From assembly GCA_903913215.1 (NCBI GenBank), contig CAIWKE010000003.1:372001-436000 (forward strand): a DNA stretch of 64,000 bases, read 5' to 3'. Shown here in pieces: positions 31,198 through 37,409 of the stretch. The notes below the pieces were generated by a model that did not search any database, was not told where the DNA came from, and worked only from the letters and a program-made list of their open reading frames with translations. Source of the stretch: an uncultured Holophagaceae bacterium. GTDB taxonomy: Bacteria; Acidobacteriota; Holophagae; Holophagales; Holophagaceae. Every line of letters starts with the position of its first letter. The stretch's first letter is position 1. Position numbers and translations under genes: made by a program.

Positions 31198-31248
31198 AGC
31201 CGGGCCCTGAAGCCAGGGCGCCCAACCAGACTCTTGAAAGGAGTTTCC

Positions 31249-31569
31249 ATGTCCGACCTCGTAGCTCACATCACGGATGCCGAGTTCCCCACAGTGATTG
31301 CCCAGGGCGTCACCCTCGTGGATTTCTGGGCCCCCTGGTGCGGCCCCTGCAAGATGATCGCCCCCGTCCTGGACGAGCTGGCCGCCGAGATGGTGGGCAA
31401 GGCCAAGTTCGTGAAGATGAACGTGGACGAGAACCCCGGCGTCGCCGGCCAGTTCGGCATCATGAGCATCCCCACCCTCATCGTCTTCAAGGACGGCAAG
31501 CCCGTGAACAAGCTCATCGGCGGCCAGCCCAAGCCGCAGCTGAAGGCGTTTGTGGAAGGTGCGTTCTAG
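31249..31569 (+). CDS. trxA: Thioredoxin
   Basis: 106 residues from the ATG at 31249, which has AAAGGAG 6 nt upstream; a longer frame starting at 31234 is less likely. The active site WCGPC (Cys31, Cys34) sits in VDFWAPWCGPCKM. The cis-proline loop IMSIPTLIVFKDG and the C-terminal helix are standard. It is a general disulfide reductant. A strong terminator follows the stop by about 33 bp. Confidence 0.97.
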   Translation: MSDLVAHITDAEFPTVIAQGVTLVDFWAPWCGPCKMIAPVLDELAAEMVGKAKFVKMNVDENPGVAGQFGIMSIPTLIVFKDGKPVNKLIGGQPKPQLKAFVEGAF

Positions 31570-31602
31570 GCCTTCGTTCTCGCTTGGAGGTCCGTGAATG
31601 CG

Positions 31603-31629
31603 AAAAACGCCGGCTTTGCCGGCGTTTTT
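31603..31629 (+). terminator. Intrinsic terminator after trxA
   Basis: A perfect palindrome AAAAACGCCGGC-TTT-GCCGGCGTTTTT. The 8-bp GC core is flanked by A and T tracts, giving a textbook rho-independent terminator that also works in reverse. Confidence 0.92.
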
Positions 31630-31795
31630 CGTTTGGACTAGCTTTGGATGCTTCCCCCTATCGCGAGGGAGGAAGGGGCCTGGGCGCTTGAGCCCCTTCG
31701 TCGTAGTGCTCTTTCAAGGATCAGCAGCTTTTTCGGCGGTTTCAATGGCCGGGGAATCGATTCGAAGCTAAAGGACGTCCAGGGAACTCGCCAAA

Positions 31796-31995
31796 CCCCT
31801 CCACCGCGAGATCCGTGAGGAGGACCTCCACCTCCGCCGCCCCCATGTCTCATGGATGATGCTTCCCGTGGAATAAGATGTACCGCCGCCCTCAGTTCGA
31901 GTGGGCCTCCTTCGTGCGGAGGCTGTAGTGCATTCTCCGCAGCACGACCCGCTGTTGATCCAGAAGTCGGGGGAGGGCGGCGGCGTAACATCCAT
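31796..31995 (-). pseudogene. intI: Integron integrase (IntI) N-terminal remnant with frameshift and stop codons
   Basis: From an ATG at 31995 the minus strand reads MDVTPPPSP. It then needs a 1-nt frame change in a C-run (complement of about 31969-31977) to continue RLLDQQRVVLRR-MHYSLRTKEAHSN. A stop at 31892-31894 is followed in frame by GRRYILFHGKHHP. A second stop at 31850-31852 is followed by DMGAAEVEVLLTDLAVEG, after which similarity ends. This order and spacing match the core-binding domain of IntI tyrosine recombinases (HYSLRTE.AY...RRYI.FHGKRHP..MG..EVE.FLT.LAVEG). The catalytic domain is gone, so the gene is dead. From 31640 to 31795 I see nothing recognisable. Confidence 0.85.
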
Positions 31996-32130
31996 CCGGA
32001 TTATTTAGGGCCGCCCTAATTCTTGAAGAATCACACTTCCTTAAGAATGATCTATGCTTCACTGGGGCCGGGATCCTGCTTACACGATCCTTCGGGCGGG
32101 TCCAGTGGTTCGTCAAATTCAAAGTTAGGC
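31996..32130 (+). other. Putative attI site and start of first cassette
   Basis: The 135 bp between the intI start and the first cassette ends in TTCAAAGTTAGGC. This is close to the attI1 end ACAAAGTTAGGC, with the G/TTRRRY crossover point at 32124-32125. A GCCCTAAT at 32013 and a TTGAAGAA/TTCGTCAA pairing also let it be read as an attC, but position next to intI favours attI. Confidence 0.6.
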
Positions 32131-32177
32131 GTTACCCGAACTAGGCCACTATCGATCCATCTGCCTAAGGAGGCTGT

Positions 32178-32663
32178 GTGAAACGATTGTTTGCTCTCCC
32201 CTTGGTCCTATTGGCAGGCCTCCTTGCCTGTGCATCCACACACACTCTCCCACAGCCTTCTTCCGAGGTTGTCCAGGCTGAAATTCGAAAGGCAATTGAC
32301 GGTTTCAGTGAGGCTTCCATTCGAGGAGATCTGCCCGGAGTGTTGGCTAAATTTGACGATCAGGCCGATATTCTTCTCATTGGCTCCGACAAGGGAGAAG
32401 TTTACAAGGGTCGCGCAGCCATGGAAGTTTGGCTCGGAAGCCTCTATAAATCGAATGGATTCGGATGGCAGATGGACCGCATTGATATCAGCCATAACGG
32501 TGATACGGCTTGGGCTTTTGTTGAGGGCAAAATGAACGTAAGTAATAAGGTCACTGGCAAACTTCGGTTCAGTGCCCCGTACCGCTTCTCGGTCGTGTTC
32601 GTGAGAAGAAGTAACAACTGGGTATTGCGACTCTTTCACGGGTCTGCACCAGGAAAAGAATGA
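32178..32663 (+). CDS. Cassette 1: NTF2-like lipoprotein
   Basis: 161 residues from a GTG with TAAGGAGG 4 nt upstream. The signal ends in a lipobox (LLAGLLAC, Cys about 18). The mature part is an NTF2/SnoaL-like domain: EIRKAIDGFSEASIRGDL, AKFDDQADILLIGSDKGEVYKG, AMEVWLGSLY and a closing SVVFVRRSNNWVLRLFHGS. Codon use is much more AT-rich than that of flanking genes, in keeping with cassette origin. Its cassette runs from the crossover point at 32125 to 32792. No promoter is evident, as is usual for cassettes. Ligand or enzymatic role unknown. Confidence 0.8.
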   Translation: MKRLFALPLVLLAGLLACASTHTLPQPSSEVVQAEIRKAIDGFSEASIRGDLPGVLAKFDDQADILLIGSDKGEVYKGRAAMEVWLGSLYKSNGFGWQMDRIDISHNGDTAWAFVEGKMNVSNKVTGKLRFSAPYRFSVVFVRRSNNWVLRLFHGSAPGKE

Positions 32664-32675
32664 AGATCATTCCTC

Positions 32676-32798
32676 GCCCAATCCTTCGCTCAACCTGGAC
32701 CCCGCCTGCACTGCCTTTCGCTCTCTCTCAGCTTCTCGCTTCCTCGGCTTCGCACAGCGCCTTGGTGCAGGCGGGCCGGTTAGCTTGAATCGTTAGGC
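32676..32798 (+). other. attC site of cassette 1, 123 bp
   Basis: R'' GCCCAAT (32676-32682), then GCTCAACC as L''. L' CGGTTAGC is complementary to L'' apart from one extra C, the expected extrahelical base. R' is GTTAGGC (32792-32798). An 11-bp perfect stem CCCGCCTGCAC/GTGCAGGCGGG supports the hairpin. The last base of R'' departs from RYYYAAC. Confidence 0.82.
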
Positions 32799-32858
32799 CA
32801 CCCAAAGTTGAATCCAAATTCAAGGACGATCAAGCAGGTTCTTTTGGAGGGCGCAACC

Positions 32859-33107
32859 GTGAGTGATTTTCATGAAGGAACGAATGCTCGGTGGTCCTTA
32901 TCAAGATTTCTGATGGTCGGGCTCATCATTGCCGTAATCGGATACCTCCCGCTTCAGCTCTATATCCTCTTTGGGCCTCGTGACGGGAACCCGATTGGCC
33001 TTGGCTTGTTGTTTGTGATTGGGGTTTTCACGGGACTAGTGGTGGTTGTCATTGGCATCGTCAAGCACACCATCCAATATTTTATGAATGGAAAGGAAGA
33101 ACCGTGA
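32859..33107 (+). CDS. Cassette 2: small two-helix membrane protein
   Basis: 82 residues from a GTG at 32859, which has GGAGG 8 nt upstream; a TTG at 32808 would add 17 residues but lacks a ribosome site. Two hydrophobic segments are clear: FLMVGLIIAVIGYLPLQLYI (about 18-37) and LGLLFVIGVFTGLVVVVIGI (about 50-69). The C-terminus is short and charged (NGKEEP). No family is recognised. Small membrane proteins are common integron cargo. Confidence 0.68.
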   Translation: MSDFHEGTNARWSLSRFLMVGLIIAVIGYLPLQLYILFGPRDGNPIGLGLLFVIGVFTGLVVVVIGIVKHTIQYFMNGKEEP

Positions 33108-33118
33108 CAGGGCTCTCG

Positions 33119-33177
33119 GCATTACGCATTCTCAGCGCCTCGGTGCAGGCGTAGCCGGTGACCTTCCTTTGTTTGGC
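33119..33177 (+). other. attC site of cassette 2, 59 bp
   Basis: GCATTAC (R''-like) to GTTTGGC (R', 33171-33177) spans exactly 59 bp, the classic 59-base-element size. CGCCT/AGGCG forms the stem. The 3' half, GGTGCAGGCGTAGCCGGTGACC, closely matches the other sites. Both cores diverge from consensus. Confidence 0.65.
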
Positions 33178-33201
33178 TTTTCCACCTCCTTTGGAGTCCG
33201 T

Positions 33202-33672
33202 TTGAGATTTGGAATCGCAATCCCGTGTTCACTTCTAGCAGCCCTGGCGATGACAGGCTGTGTGTCTCCTTCAAAATTGACCTCAACCCAAGACGTTGAG
33301 ACAAACAGAAGGATTGTGCTTGCTTTCTACAACGAAGCGCTTGTAAGTAAGCGTGTGCGCACTTCATTTCAGCGATATGTATCCCCATCATTTATCGAGC
33401 ACAAGCCCGATGTTGTAGGCGGCACACGCGAAGAAACCATTGTATTCCTGGGAGGCCTCATCCAAGAATTTCCCGAAGCTCGTTGGGAAGTGATTCGGTC
33501 AATTTCCGAGGGTGATTTTGTATTCCTCCATGCTCGATTCACGCCTTCACCAGGAGCTGCACCGTATTCAATTGCAGATATATTCCGTCTTCAAAAAGGC
33601 GTTATCACTGAGCACTGGGATGCAGTTGGGCGTCCCCCAGAGCACCAGCGCAATCCCAACCCGCGGTTCTAA
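33202..33672 (+). CDS. Cassette 3: SnoaL-like lipoprotein
   Basis: 156 residues from a TTG at 33202 with GGAG 5 nt upstream. Starts further upstream would run through the attC of cassette 2 and are rejected. The signal MRFGIAIPCSLLAALAMTGC carries a lipobox at Cys20. The mature domain is SnoaL-like: RRIVLAFYNEALVSK, RYVSPSFIEHKPDVVGG, IVFLGGLIQEFPEARWEVI, and DIFRLQKGVITEHWDAVG, the last being the strongest family mark. SnoaL-type proteins include cyclases and many uncharacterised members. Base composition is AT-rich relative to the chromosome. Confidence 0.78.
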   Translation: MRFGIAIPCSLLAALAMTGCVSPSKLTSTQDVETNRRIVLAFYNEALVSKRVRTSFQRYVSPSFIEHKPDVVGGTREETIVFLGGLIQEFPEARWEVIRSISEGDFVFLHARFTPSPGAAPYSIADIFRLQKGVITEHWDAVGRPPEHQRNPNPRF

Positions 33673-33697
33673 ATTCTTGTGTAATCTCTCGGATGAT

Positions 33698-33720
33698 GCC
33701 TAACCCTTAATAACCCATGG
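33698..33720 (+). other. Truncated attC (5' half only) after cassette 3
   Basis: GCCTAAC (33698-33704) is a perfect R'' core followed by CCTTAATAACCC as a possible L''. No matching GTTRRRY occurs before the next gene 27 bp later, so the 3' half seems deleted, fusing cassettes 3 and 4. Confidence 0.5.
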
Positions 33721-33730
33721 ACTCATCAAC

Positions 33731-34177
33731 ATGCGTGTGCTCATCTCGTTTTTCGTCCTAATCGTGATCGGCGCATCCAATTTTTTGTGGGCTGAGGGGC
33801 TGGTAACAAGAGATCAAGTGGCGGCGGCAACCATGGCATGGCAGGCGGCCTACGACAGCCGGGATCCAGGAGCCATCGTCAGCATGTACGACGCAGAGGC
33901 ATTGTTCTGGGGAACCACCGCCAAAACGATTGCTCCGACGCCTGCTGCCGTCTGGGATTATTTCAAGGATGCCGCTTCCAGGCCAAAAGCGCGTGTAGTC
34001 ATCGGTGAACATCACATTCGCGTCTTCGGCGAGATGGCCATTAATTCCGGCTACTACACGTTCACGGATGTCCGGGATGGCCAAGCCGTGCTCAAACCTG
34101 CACGCTTCACTTTCGTGTTTCATCGCAAAGCTGGCAAGTGGCTCGTGGTGGCCCACCATTCCTCGGCCATGCCATAG
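33731..34177 (+). CDS. Cassette 4: exported NTF2-like (DUF4440/CaMKII-AD-like) protein
   Basis: 148 residues with a signal peptide (about 1-21, ending in NFLWAEG). The rest is a single NTF2-like domain: VAAATMAWQAAYDSRDPGAIVSMY, ALFWGTTAKTIAPTPAAVWDYF, VVIGEHHIRVF and FTFVFHRKAGKWLVVAHHSS. The final HHSS pattern is typical of the CaMKII association-domain-like group. It is followed by a complete attC. The ATG has no strong ribosome site; the fused half attC upstream may have replaced its original leader. Confidence 0.8.
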   Translation: MRVLISFFVLIVIGASNFLWAEGLVTRDQVAAATMAWQAAYDSRDPGAIVSMYDAEALFWGTTAKTIAPTPAAVWDYFKDAASRPKARVVIGEHHIRVFGEMAINSGYYTFTDVRDGQAVLKPARFTFVFHRKAGKWLVVAHHSSAMP

Positions 34178-34210
34178 TCATGGCGCCCTTCAGTGCTTCC
34201 ATCAAGTTCC

Positions 34211-34331
34211 GCCTTACCCTGCGCTTCAGTCGCCCCCCCAGCATTGCCCCCGACTCTCTCTCAGTATGACGCTATCTCAGCCCGCTCAGCACCTCGATGC
34301 AAGCGTGACCGCTTAGCTTCTTCCGTTTGGC
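34211..34331 (+). other. attC site of cassette 4, 121 bp
   Basis: GCCTTAC (34211-34217) followed by CCTGCGCTTCAG, and at the other end CCGCTTAGC then GTTTGGC (34325-34331). Size and 3' layout match the 123-bp site, and its R' is identical to that of the 59-bp site. Core bases are imperfect. Confidence 0.65.
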
Positions 34332-34357
34332 GTGACCAATTTTCCCGGAGGCGTGCG

Positions 34358-34786
34358 ATGGCACTCATTGATCAGATCAATCGCTATTTCGAATCGATCC
34401 CAGAGCCCAAGCAAACGGACATGCGGAGACTCCATGACGCCATCCTGGAGCTGAATCCTGGTTGCCAACTTTGGTTTCTCGACGGCAAAGACGGGAGCGG
34501 TAAGGTGGTGTCCAACCCAAGCATTGGTTATGGCACGTTGACCAAAAAATACGCCGATGGGAAAAACAAAGAGTTCTATCAGGCAGGTATCAGCGCGAAC
34601 TCAGCGGGTCTGTCGGTCTACATCATGGGCATGGACGACAAGAAGTATTTGCAAGAAAATTACGCAGCCACAATCGGAAAGGCCAGCATCACGGGGTACT
34701 GCATCAAGTTCAAGGCGCTCAAGGATATTGACTTGGACACCCTAAAGCGTGCCATCCAAGATGGTATGGAACGAGCACGCGCCTGA
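34358..34786 (+). CDS. Cassette 5: DUF1801 (YdhG-like) protein
   Basis: 142 residues from the ATG at 34358, which has GGAGG 6 nt upstream; the longer frame from 34193 would translate the attC and is rejected. The sequence matches the DUF1801 fold: FESIPEPKQTDMRRLHDAIL, CQLWFLDGKDGSGKVVSNPS, IGYGTLTKKYADG and YIMGMDDKKYLQENY. DUF1801 proteins are small cytosolic proteins of unclear function, often found on mobile DNA. No attC follows, so this may be the last cassette or one that lost its site. Confidence 0.78.
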   Translation: MALIDQINRYFESIPEPKQTDMRRLHDAILELNPGCQLWFLDGKDGSGKVVSNPSIGYGTLTKKYADGKNKEFYQAGISANSAGLSVYIMGMDDKKYLQENYAATIGKASITGYCIKFKALKDIDLDTLKRAIQDGMERARA

Positions 34787-34823
34787 GCCCCCTCTTCTCC
34801 ACAGCTCTCATCAGGAGCCAGCC

Positions 34824-35177
34824 ATGACCTTTGGGAAGACCGCAGCATTCTGCCTCTCCCTCTGCCTTGCAGGACGGGCCTATGCACAGCAGCCGGGTGA
34901 GCACGGTACATCCATCAGCGATCCTGGGAATTCATTTGAAGTCCTGATGGCCAAGGTCGAGCAGGTGTTTTCCTATGCTGATGAAGCTGGCTTTCAATTC
35001 ATTGCCTACCAGATCTCATATCAAGGACATCCCGTGGTCGTCGAGGATCCTATTGGCTCTACGAACATTGCGGTGGGTGGCGAAGTCCGATTTCTCGTCA
35101 TTCGGCATGACATGACGAAGGCGCCGAGGCCGGGCAAGAAACTTCTCAGCTTCCTGGTCACCAAGCAGGTGGCCTGA
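34824..35177 (+). CDS. Small exported protein of unknown function
   Basis: 117 residues from the ATG at 34824, with CAGGAG 6 nt upstream. A signal peptide (about 1-22, ending in GRAYAQQ) precedes about 95 residues with VLMAKVEQVFSYADEAGFQFIAY, VVEDPIGSTNIAVGGEVRFL and KKLLSFLVTKQV. Family not recognised. It follows the last cassette gene by only 37 bp on the same strand. Its GC content is intermediate between the island and the chromosome, so it may be a cassette without attC. Confidence 0.62.
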   Translation: MTFGKTAAFCLSLCLAGRAYAQQPGEHGTSISDPGNSFEVLMAKVEQVFSYADEAGFQFIAYQISYQGHPVVVEDPIGSTNIAVGGEVRFLVIRHDMTKAPRPGKKLLSFLVTKQVA

Positions 35178-35205
35178 GCCCCTGCTTCCTTCCCAAGGTC
35201 GGCCG

Positions 35206-35508
35206 ATGCCCATTTTCGCGGAGCCCTACAAACCACCCCCACCCGATCCAATCCCGATCTTTGGGGAACCCCCCTTCGGACCAGCCCTCATGGCGGAGCT
35301 GGTTCGCACGCTCGAACAGCGTGGCTGGGCCTGTGACCATACCCTGAAGCAGGTGAAGGCCTTCCTCCAGGCGAAAGACCTCGACGTTGAGCCTGTGTTC
35401 AAGTGGCTATACCGGAGTCACCTCTACTGCGACTGCGCCCTTGTGAAGGCCTTCCACCAGCACACCTTTCCTCAGGCCGGAGACAGCCCGGGTCCCAGGG
35501 CCGGTTAA
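35206..35508 (+). CDS. DUF2695-like small protein
   Basis: 100 residues. The C-terminal half, TLKQVKAFLQAKDLDVEPVF followed by KWLYRSHLYCDCALVKAF, resembles DUF2695, whose hallmark is a WL..NGGYCDCEVL-type ending with the CDC pair. The N-terminus is Pro-rich (EPYKPPPPDPIPIFGEPPFG). The function of the family is unknown. It lies 28 bp after the preceding gene on the same strand. Confidence 0.6.
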   Translation: MPIFAEPYKPPPPDPIPIFGEPPFGPALMAELVRTLEQRGWACDHTLKQVKAFLQAKDLDVEPVFKWLYRSHLYCDCALVKAFHQHTFPQAGDSPGPRAG

Positions 35509-35547
35509 CATCGAGCCAGCCGACGTCCCCGCGCAAAGGATTCCATT

Positions 35548-35886
35548 TTGAGCCAGCTGCCTGCCTGCCCCACCTGCAAGTCTGATTACACCTACGAGAG
35601 CGACGGCGGGTTTGTCTGCCCGGAATGCGCCCATGAGTGGACCCTGGCGCTGGATACACCTCAGGAGCAGGAGGCCATCATCCGGGACGCCAACGGGAAT
35701 GTCCTGCAGAACGGGGATTCCGTCACCCTCATCAAGGACCTGAAGGTCAAGGGCAGCCCCTCCCCCCTGAAGATGGGCACCAAGGTCAAGAACATCCGCC
35801 TGGTGGAGGGCGATCACAACATCGACTGCAAGATCGAAGGCTTCGGCGCCATGAGCCTGAAATCGGAATTCGTCAAAAAGAGCTGA
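35548..35886 (+). CDS. yjdM: YjdM/PhnA-family zinc-ribbon protein
   Basis: 112 residues from a TTG at 35548 (AAAGGA 7 nt upstream). The N-terminal zinc ribbon has [11 protein letters not shown] and CPECAHEW, four cysteines in two pairs. The C-terminal SH3-like PhnA domain contains [30 protein letters not shown] and [20 protein letters not shown]. The family was once linked to phosphonate use but its members are of uncertain function. Length and domains are complete. Confidence 0.9.
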
Positions 35887-36092
35887 GCCCCCGCCTGCGC
35901 AGGCCTGTGGGGTGGCCCATCCACACGCTTTCTTCCAGTGCGCCGTCCCACCCACCGTCGCGAGCCTCGATCCCGGTTGCCGATTCCATGAATTGCCAGG
36001 ATCTGTCCACACTCTTTCTTACACTTCAGGGGCCCATGCCCAAGGGCCTTCGGGCAACTGCCATGCTGTCGATCGCACCAGGCTGAGGGCCC

Positions 36093-36452
36093 ATGGACGA
36101 TCGGATCAGCAACCTCGAAGCACTGAAGACCAAGCTGGCGGAACTGCTGGATCGCAGTGGGCTCCGGTTCAGCGACCAGGGACACCACGCCACCGCCTGC
36201 TGGGTCGAGGGTCCACCGCATGCGGTCTTCGCGCTGCTGAAGCGCAAGACTGCGCCTGAGCTCTGGTCCCAGTCTGGGAATGTCCTGTGGACCTACAAGA
36301 ATCCAGTCGAGAACATCCTCATCACCCTGCAGAGCGGGAGTATCCATGACTCCACACTCATGATGGCTTCGGTGATCTCCCTGCATGTGGAGTACATGGC
36401 AAGGCGGCAGCAGGCCCCCGCGGAAGAGGCCCTGCAGGAAACCATCGCCTGA
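36093..36452 (+). CDS. Hypothetical cytosolic protein
   Basis: 119 residues, starting MDDRISNLEALKTKLAELLD. A mixed alpha/beta pattern is visible (HHATACWVEGPPHAVFALLK, ENILITLQSGSIHDSTLMMA), with no signal peptide or membrane segment. GAGGG lies close to the ATG. I recognise no family. The 206-bp gap before it (35887-36092) shows no attC, promoter or repeat that I can support. Confidence 0.55.
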   Translation: MDDRISNLEALKTKLAELLDRSGLRFSDQGHHATACWVEGPPHAVFALLKRKTAPELWSQSGNVLWTYKNPVENILITLQSGSIHDSTLMMASVISLHVEYMARRQQAPAEEALQETIA

Positions 36453-36497
36453 ACCACTGCGGGGGCCGGGAGCTTCGCCACCACCCCCAGGCAGGGC

Positions 36498-37409
36498 CTA
36501 CTTCCGCCTAAGCACCATGCGGATCTGGTTCCCCTTGGCGTTGAAGTGGACCTCGTCCATGACCAGGAGGATGAGGGGCAGGCCGCGACCGCAGTGGGGA
36601 GCCAGGTCCGAGTCGCCGGGCAGGGGCGACATCTGGCTGGCGTCAAAGCCCGGGCCTTCGTCACTGATCTCCAGCTCGAAGCGCTCCGTGTCCATGGCCA
36701 GGCGCACCTCGATGAGGCGCCCCGCGTACGCGGGGTCCGCCATGCGCTCGGCGCGCAAGGTCACGTAGGCATCCTCGGCGGCGAAGAGGTCGCCCTTGAG
36801 GTGCGACTCCAGCTCCAGGTTGCCGTGCTCCAGGGCGTTCACCAGGGCTTCGTGGAAGGCCATGGAGATGACGTCCACGTTATTGAGGGAGGCGAAGCCC
36901 ATGGGCACCAGGCGGTCCGAGAGGTGCCGCACGAGGCTGGGCACCTCCAGCTCGTCCGAGCGGAAGAGGAAGTGGCGGCGCTCGTTCACCAGACCCCGCA
37001 GGCCGTCATCCGCCAGGCGGAAGTCCCGGTGCATGTCCACGAGATGGAAGACACTCTGGACCAGGTCGCGGATGGCCACGGGCTTCATGAAGAGGTTCGA
37101 AGCCCCCAGGCGCATGGCCCGAATGGCGTAGTCGACCGAGGCCTGGCCCGTCATGAGCACCACGGGCAGATGGGGCTGGGTGGCCTTCACTTTGTGGATG
37201 ACATCGAAGCCGTCCAGGCCTTCCATGTGGATATCGCTGATGACCAAGTCGAATTCCGGGGCCGAGGGATTCTGCAGCAGCTCCAGGGCCTGGGCCGCGT
37301 CGGGGTAGGCGTGGACCTCCATGCCGTAGTGGCCCAGGACCGACTGCACCATGTCCAGAACGGCCGAATCATCGTCGATGAGCAGGATGTGCGCAGCCCT
37401 ACGTTTCAT
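36498..37409 (-). CDS. Response regulator with RsbW-like HATPase output
   Basis: 303 residues. A receiver domain (about 6-125) has LLIDDDSAVLD, phospho-acceptor Asp59 in VISDIHMEGLDG, LMTGQ and the switch Lys in FMKPV. The C-terminal half (about 150-300) is an HATPase_c_2 domain of the RsbW/SpoIIAB type, with FHEALVNALEHGN as N-box, ISDEGPGFD as G1 and HCGRGLPLILLVMD as G2. This architecture suggests a phosphorylation-controlled protein kinase or anti-sigma factor of a partner-switching pathway. The matching PP2C phosphatase class is present at 8.2-9.8 kb. No sigma or STAS gene is adjacent. Confidence 0.88.
   Translation of the reverse strand: MKRRAAHILLIDDDSAVLDMVQSVLGHYGMEVHAYPDAAQALELLQNPSAPEFDLVISDIHMEGLDGFDVIHKVKATQPHLPVVLMTGQASVDYAIRAMRLGASNLFMKPVAIRDLVQSVFHLVDMHRDFRLADDGLRGLVNERRHFLFRSDELEVPSLVRHLSDRLVPMGFASLNNVDVISMAFHEALVNALEHGNLELESHLKGDLFAAEDAYVTLRAERMADPAYAGRLIEVRLAMDTERFELEISDEGPGFDASQMSPLPGDSDLAPHCGRGLPLILLVMDEVHFNAKGNQIRMVLRRK

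Follow-up and report, generated by a model that had tools for sequence, protein, structure and literature searches.

The window, the 64,000-nucleotide stretch of DNA analyzed here, very probably contains a dead, ectopic second integron platform whose cassettes persist as ordinary genes, a reading that we give a probability of roughly 80%. The genome is 95% complete in 41 contigs, and it is congeneric with the named species of Geothrix, in the family Holophagaceae of the Acidobacteriota. Between trxA and a response-regulator gene, an intI remnant on the minus strand, an attI site and a cassette array on the plus strand follow one another in the standard divergent layout of integrons. An attI beside a divergent intI is therefore present, and a functional integrase gene is absent because of two stops, a frame shift and truncation.

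The platform is situated at a place where the other members of the genus have none. In all 19 congeners examined, trxA adjoins the response-regulator gene, usually 60-130 bp apart and with a terminator hairpin, and an integron was found there in 0 of the 19. The distance is 4.9 kb in the window, and the extra block begins just behind the terminator at 31601-31631. G+C is 49-58% across most of the block, versus 63-76% around it. The junction is composed as follows.

31234-31569, plus strand: trxA (thioredoxin), a conserved host gene, left flank
31601-31631: perfect inverted repeat of 14 bp that serves as terminator for both convergent genes, trxA and response regulator; left limit of the insertion
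31640-36485: inserted block of about 4.85 kb, absent here in congeners (approximate, ends not base-exact)
36498-37409, minus strand: response-regulator/HATPase gene, right flank

Four of the 19 congeners contain unrelated inserts of 1.0 or 3.7 kb at this junction, none with an integron, and this convergent intergenic site therefore takes up DNA repeatedly. These inserts were 3.7 kb long in G045 and G038 (L088, L092) and 1.0 kb long in G015 and G006 (L078, L090).

The gene that gives the platform its identity is reduced to its 5' end.

31973-31995, minus strand: 5' end of the intI remnant; its ATG at 31995 corresponds to the start codon of the closest intact intI, but the body is in another frame
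31796-31972, minus strand: N-terminal part of intI, a single frame of about 58 codons; the 3' four fifths of the gene are missing
31894-31892 and 31852-31850, minus strand: TGA stops in the body frame

The preliminary description had recognized an IntI-like pseudogene, and this is confirmed. TIGR02249, run as an HMM against the complete assembly, matched 31796-31963 of the minus strand (E=1.1e-8, model positions 2-57 of 315), with two TGA codons inside the match. The intact IntI of a Geothrix-group MAG (JANXYT010000326.1, G025), used as a query, aligned to 31799-31975 with 66% identity (E=1.6e-18), which was the top IntI match genome-wide. An IntI-type N-terminal domain is thus present in the remnant. 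With the IntI of 17 congeners as tblastn queries, a single frame was followed from 31972 to about 31799, both stops included; the TGA codons fell exactly at 31892 and 31850, where they had been described, and no frameshift was found inside the body of about 58 codons.

Upstream of the body, the situation is less simple, as the preliminary description had placed a 1-nt shift in a C-run. The ATG at 31995 is indeed out of frame with the body, and an ATG, GTG or TTG start upstream in the body frame was not seen. The sequence therefore supports a frame shift between start and body (31995 to 31972), for which the C-run is a plausible site; the exact position cannot be fixed because the N-terminal tail of IntI is variable. 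At the other end, the similarity to IntI breaks off at 31796-31799, as abruptly as had been noted, and no convincing match of the missing part to any compared intI was found between 31632 and 31795. The IntI-specific extra domain and the catalytic R-H-R-H-Y set are absent from the remnant, its C-terminal four fifths being lost, and it scores 35.9 bits versus a curated TIGR02249 cut-off of 265. It is a pseudogene fragment and not a working family member.

Searches of the 95%-complete genome, the locus included, recovered neither the catalytic part nor another intI; the other matches were XerC/XerD-like or other tyrosine recombinases with at most 51% identity. An intact intI may lie in an assembly gap, given the 41 contigs and the fact that arrays often break assemblies. 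One candidate for a second intI, at C8:26575-27402 (L003, L189), was rejected, having just 27-32% identity to IntI. The gene encodes a tyrosine recombinase, contains two TAG codons close to the 3' end and is another decaying recombinase.

Two explanations would deprive the remnant of its meaning. The N-terminal domains of tyrosine recombinases are related, so that the remnant could derive from XerC/D or a phage-type enzyme. Its closest relatives, however, are the IntI of the genus (67% identity) and of other phyla (62%), and attI and attC adjoin it in their usual arrangement, which leaves this explanation hardly any probability. Alternatively, a sequencing or assembly error could make a live intI look broken, and one of the proposed lesions does fall in a homopolymer run. 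But the two stops are outside the run, the catalytic domain is absent, the attC sites are decayed, and a second locus of the genome is also without intI. Furthermore, 7 of the 21 residues that are invariant among 17 full-length IntI of the genus are altered in the remnant, compared with 0-4, mostly 0, when the intact genes were left out one at a time. An error is thus very improbable.

The altered residues also bear on the age of the remnant. The retained motifs RRYILFHGK and LAVEG had been taken as signs of a fairly recent inactivation. Because a third of the invariant residues (7/21) are changed, these motifs are islands in worn sequence and are no sign of a recent death; decayed attC sites and the loss of intI at the regular locus as well likewise speak against a recent event. 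Divergence by codon position could be compared over only 174 bases, with overlapping distributions, which is too noisy for dating and gives a pattern that is not clearly neutral; so short a remnant gives no date for the loss of intI. A tree of marker genes places this genome together with G045 and G038, neither of which has an intI above the cut-off, and some of the loss may therefore predate this genome.

Next to the remnant, the remaining components of an integron were found, in different states of preservation.

32005-32019: perfect palindrome TTAGGGC-C-GCCCTAA (TTAGGGCCGCCCTAA), on the upstream side of the intI remnant; the intact intI of G025 has it upstream too
32111-32129, plus strand: attI core CGTCAAATTCAAAGTTAGG, one mismatch to the genus attI core beside intact intI
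32124-32130, plus strand: G/TTAGGC exchange point of attI
32178-32663, plus strand: cassette 1 ORF, 161 aa, SnoaL-like (PF13474, E=3.1e-13)
32676-32798, plus strand: attC of cassette 1, 120 bits, E=1.5e-27, near full quality with a change in the R'' end
32808-33107, plus strand: cassette 2 ORF, 99 aa, no known family
33113-33177, plus strand: decayed attC of cassette 2, 3' half only (11.3 bits at 33113-33148; blastn 33132-33177, 87% to attC ends of G008)
33178-33672, plus strand: cassette 3, SnoaL-like (PF12680, E=2.8e-9); the mechanical ORF is 33088-33672
33698-33704, plus strand: GCCTAAC, isolated R'' end of a lost attC, read by eye
33731-34177, plus strand: cassette 4 ORF, 148 aa, DUF4440/SnoaL-like (PF14534, E=5.1e-13)
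34211-34331, plus strand: attC of cassette 4, decayed (76 bits, E=8.6e-17), both core ends mutated
34332-36485, plus strand: rest of the insertion, with a DUF1801-like ORF, an unknown ORF, DUF2695, YjdM/PhnA and an unknown ORF

The attC sites were scored with a covariance model (R1) built from 27 attC of the genus. Both window attC fit this model over their full length, with mismatched outer pairs, and their R''/R' and L''/L' form an imperfect palindrome. They belong to a very uniform type of 124 bp that occurs in 44 of 47 genus genomes, and the attC of cassette 1 is 90% identical to an attC of G008. As these two sites (32676-32798 and 34211-34331) are not accompanied by a functional intI, the locus falls under the definition of a CALIN, namely at least two attC without a functional integrase gene. 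The covariance model found no attC within 34332-36485, and the cassette status of the ORFs there is unproven. The last ORF of the block, searched for in order to trace the donor locus, had no relative in 46 congeners. An Rfam scan of 30.0-37.5 kb matched no attC family and gave chance-level matches only.

The palindrome at 32005-32019 may be the operator, i.e. a repressor site, of the intI promoter. Retention of the stub as a cassette promoter was considered and found no support: a sigma-70 scan yielded 3 promoter-like sites in the block versus 2.1 expected, and neither the stub nor attI contained one. In integrons generally, IntI recombines a circular cassette, through its attC, with attI at GTTAGGC, and it can also release inserted cassettes. 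An array that lacks IntI is frozen.

The genus has a regular integron locus elsewhere in the chromosome, at which intI is situated beside genes for a 123-aa metallopeptidase and an acyltransferase-like protein, serC and a serA-like gene. This arrangement is common to 13 congeners, including G025. In the genome under study, these neighbors (metallopeptidase, lipid acyltransferase-like, serC, serA-like) are preserved on contig C27 (L057), and the locus retains the following.

L057:8906-10657 (G000:C27): metallopeptidase gene, trace of the intI 5' end, attI, two decayed attC

A tblastn search detected no intI at this locus. Its attI is 73% identical to the window attI over 187 bp, a similarity that reaches into the first intI codons. 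Because C27 keeps attI and attC but has no intI, the genome contains two dead platforms, the regular one and that in the window. Small groups or single decayed attC are also present on contigs C26, C9 and C11 (L186:6262-7982, L187:6293-6387 and L188:6423-6520).

The state of C27 bears on whether a rearrangement could simply have moved the single ancestral integron from the regular locus to trxA, followed by decay. That only one long intI remnant exists in the genome would fit such a relocation, but an attI, attC sites and a trace of the 5' end of intI are all still present on C27. The platform was therefore copied or acquired and not simply moved, and we consider relocation unlikely. The block may have originated by duplication of the regular platform, the evidence for this being the attI and intI 5' sequence that the two loci share.

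Copies of attI away from the regular locus turned out to be frequent in Geothrix. Of 47 genomes, 23 contain the genus attI core, each at one to five places, and a reversed-pattern control gave a single hit in all 47. Twenty attI-like sites outside the regular locus (L217-L236, G001-G033) were examined, with 4 kb on each side where the contig allowed. At 19 of the 20, attI heads attC of the same orientation within 0.2-1.2 kb, and all 74 attC at these satellite sites lie downstream on the same strand, with none upstream. A trace of intI (E<1e-3) or the regular flanking genes were absent at all 20. Examples are G008:C1:1546869 and G008:C1:2640104; in the single-contig genome of G008, a satellite with more than 30 attC is situated about 0.95 Mb from intI. 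Some satellites are common to different species over 600 bp of flank, and others share just the 140-bp attI block or 20 bp. We found no published description of such attI-headed arrays in the searchable papers, all of them open-licence, a scope too narrow to claim the satellites as new.

The window locus has the architecture of these satellites, yet retains an intI stub. It is a possible, though doubtful, explanation that the locus was a satellite from the start, in which an attI-headed array moved in together with an already dead stub and always depended on the regular locus for an integrase acting in trans, for as long as that locus had one. The abundance of attI-headed arrays without intI in congeners (19 of the 20 sites) is in accordance with this, as is a satellite of G015 (L204), in which about 250 bp match a canonical attI region, ending roughly at the start of intI, and intI is missing. 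No other satellite tested kept a stub, however, and the 58 codons point to a gene that was originally more complete. The satellites also qualify the proposal that the cassettes were acquired while the adjacent intI was alive. The cassettes are there, and their capture by a live local intI is possible, but it is not required; because congeners carry attI-headed arrays without linked intI, an integrase encoded elsewhere in the same cell may have delivered them.

Loss of the integrase is not confined to this genome. IntI above the curated cut-off was found in 29 of 47 genus genomes, and this genome is not among them. Broken intI are present in at least three others (G033, G016 and G044), and loss has therefore occurred repeatedly in the genus. 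In G033, an intI of a second type is frameshifted, and the regular locus holds only a 5' stub. In this single-contig genome, the stub of about 64 codons beside the metallopeptidase gene (L211:6890-7640) marks an independent loss of the regular intI. G016 has one copy with a stop and a second, partial and frame-shifted copy at a contig edge, and G044 has a 5' fragment followed by short pieces.

Because fragmented MAGs lose repeats, attC numbers were compared only among well-assembled genomes, at least 95% complete and in at most 50 contigs. At E<=1e-6, 7 attC were counted in this genome versus 11 to at least 75 in intI-bearing congeners (Mann-Whitney one-sided p=0.0056, with only four genomes lacking intI above the cut-off, this one included). 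Scores of at least 110 bits were reached by 1 of 7 attC here versus 61 of 77 in G008. The low number and scores of the attC fit a decay of the arrays after the loss of IntI.

The remnant, attI, the attC sites, the insertion site and the loss of intI at both loci are observed, and for the dead second platform that we favor, the following order of events is proposed. A block with attI, a cassette array and either the 5' portion of intI or the entire gene, trimmed later, would have come to lie between trxA and the response-regulator gene. As long as an integrase was supplied, by the local intI or in trans by the regular one, circular cassettes would have been inserted by attC x attI exchange at GTTAGGC, and could have been excised again. 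The local intI would then have been destroyed by stops, frame shift and loss of the catalytic part, and intI at the regular locus would have been lost too. The array would now be frozen and its attC eroding, so that the cassettes would persist only as ordinary genes.

A broken intI beside stranded cassette arrays is already well known, and the pseudogene itself is a known phenomenon. About one third of the intI genes were pseudogenes in an early genome survey (PMC2426708); in the window, the gene is cut down to its first fifth. CALINs have been proposed to be degraded integrons (PMC9024848). The window resembles them in having two attC above threshold plus decayed ones and no functional intI nearby, but it keeps attI and an intI stub, so that its origin is visible. 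Another close parallel is Xanthomonas, in which the intI of an ancestral chromosomal integron was lost repeatedly in individual lineages, through stops, frame shifts and deletions, with surviving arrays and dispersed CALINs (PMC12444791). There, intI is broken downstream of ilvD, and in both groups arrays outlast the integrase. In contrast, the broken copy in the Geothrix genome is situated off the regular locus and keeps its own attI, whereas the Xanthomonas CALINs away from ilvD were described without attI (PMC12444791). No coverage of Geothrix was found in the searchable integron papers.

Geothrix is a useful setting, since the genus combines a conserved chromosomal integron with large attC arrays, several independent integrase losses and many integrase-free attI-headed arrays. 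It permits tests of whether arrays decay after the loss of the integrase and of whether one integrase serves several attI in trans. As a tentative generalization, one integrase may feed many scattered attI-headed arrays in trans, with platforms being copied and the copied intI decaying; the window would then be a copy that still has part of intI, in a genome in which the master integrase is dead and the arrays erode together. A satellite that retains an intI stub is direct evidence on how extra platforms may arise.
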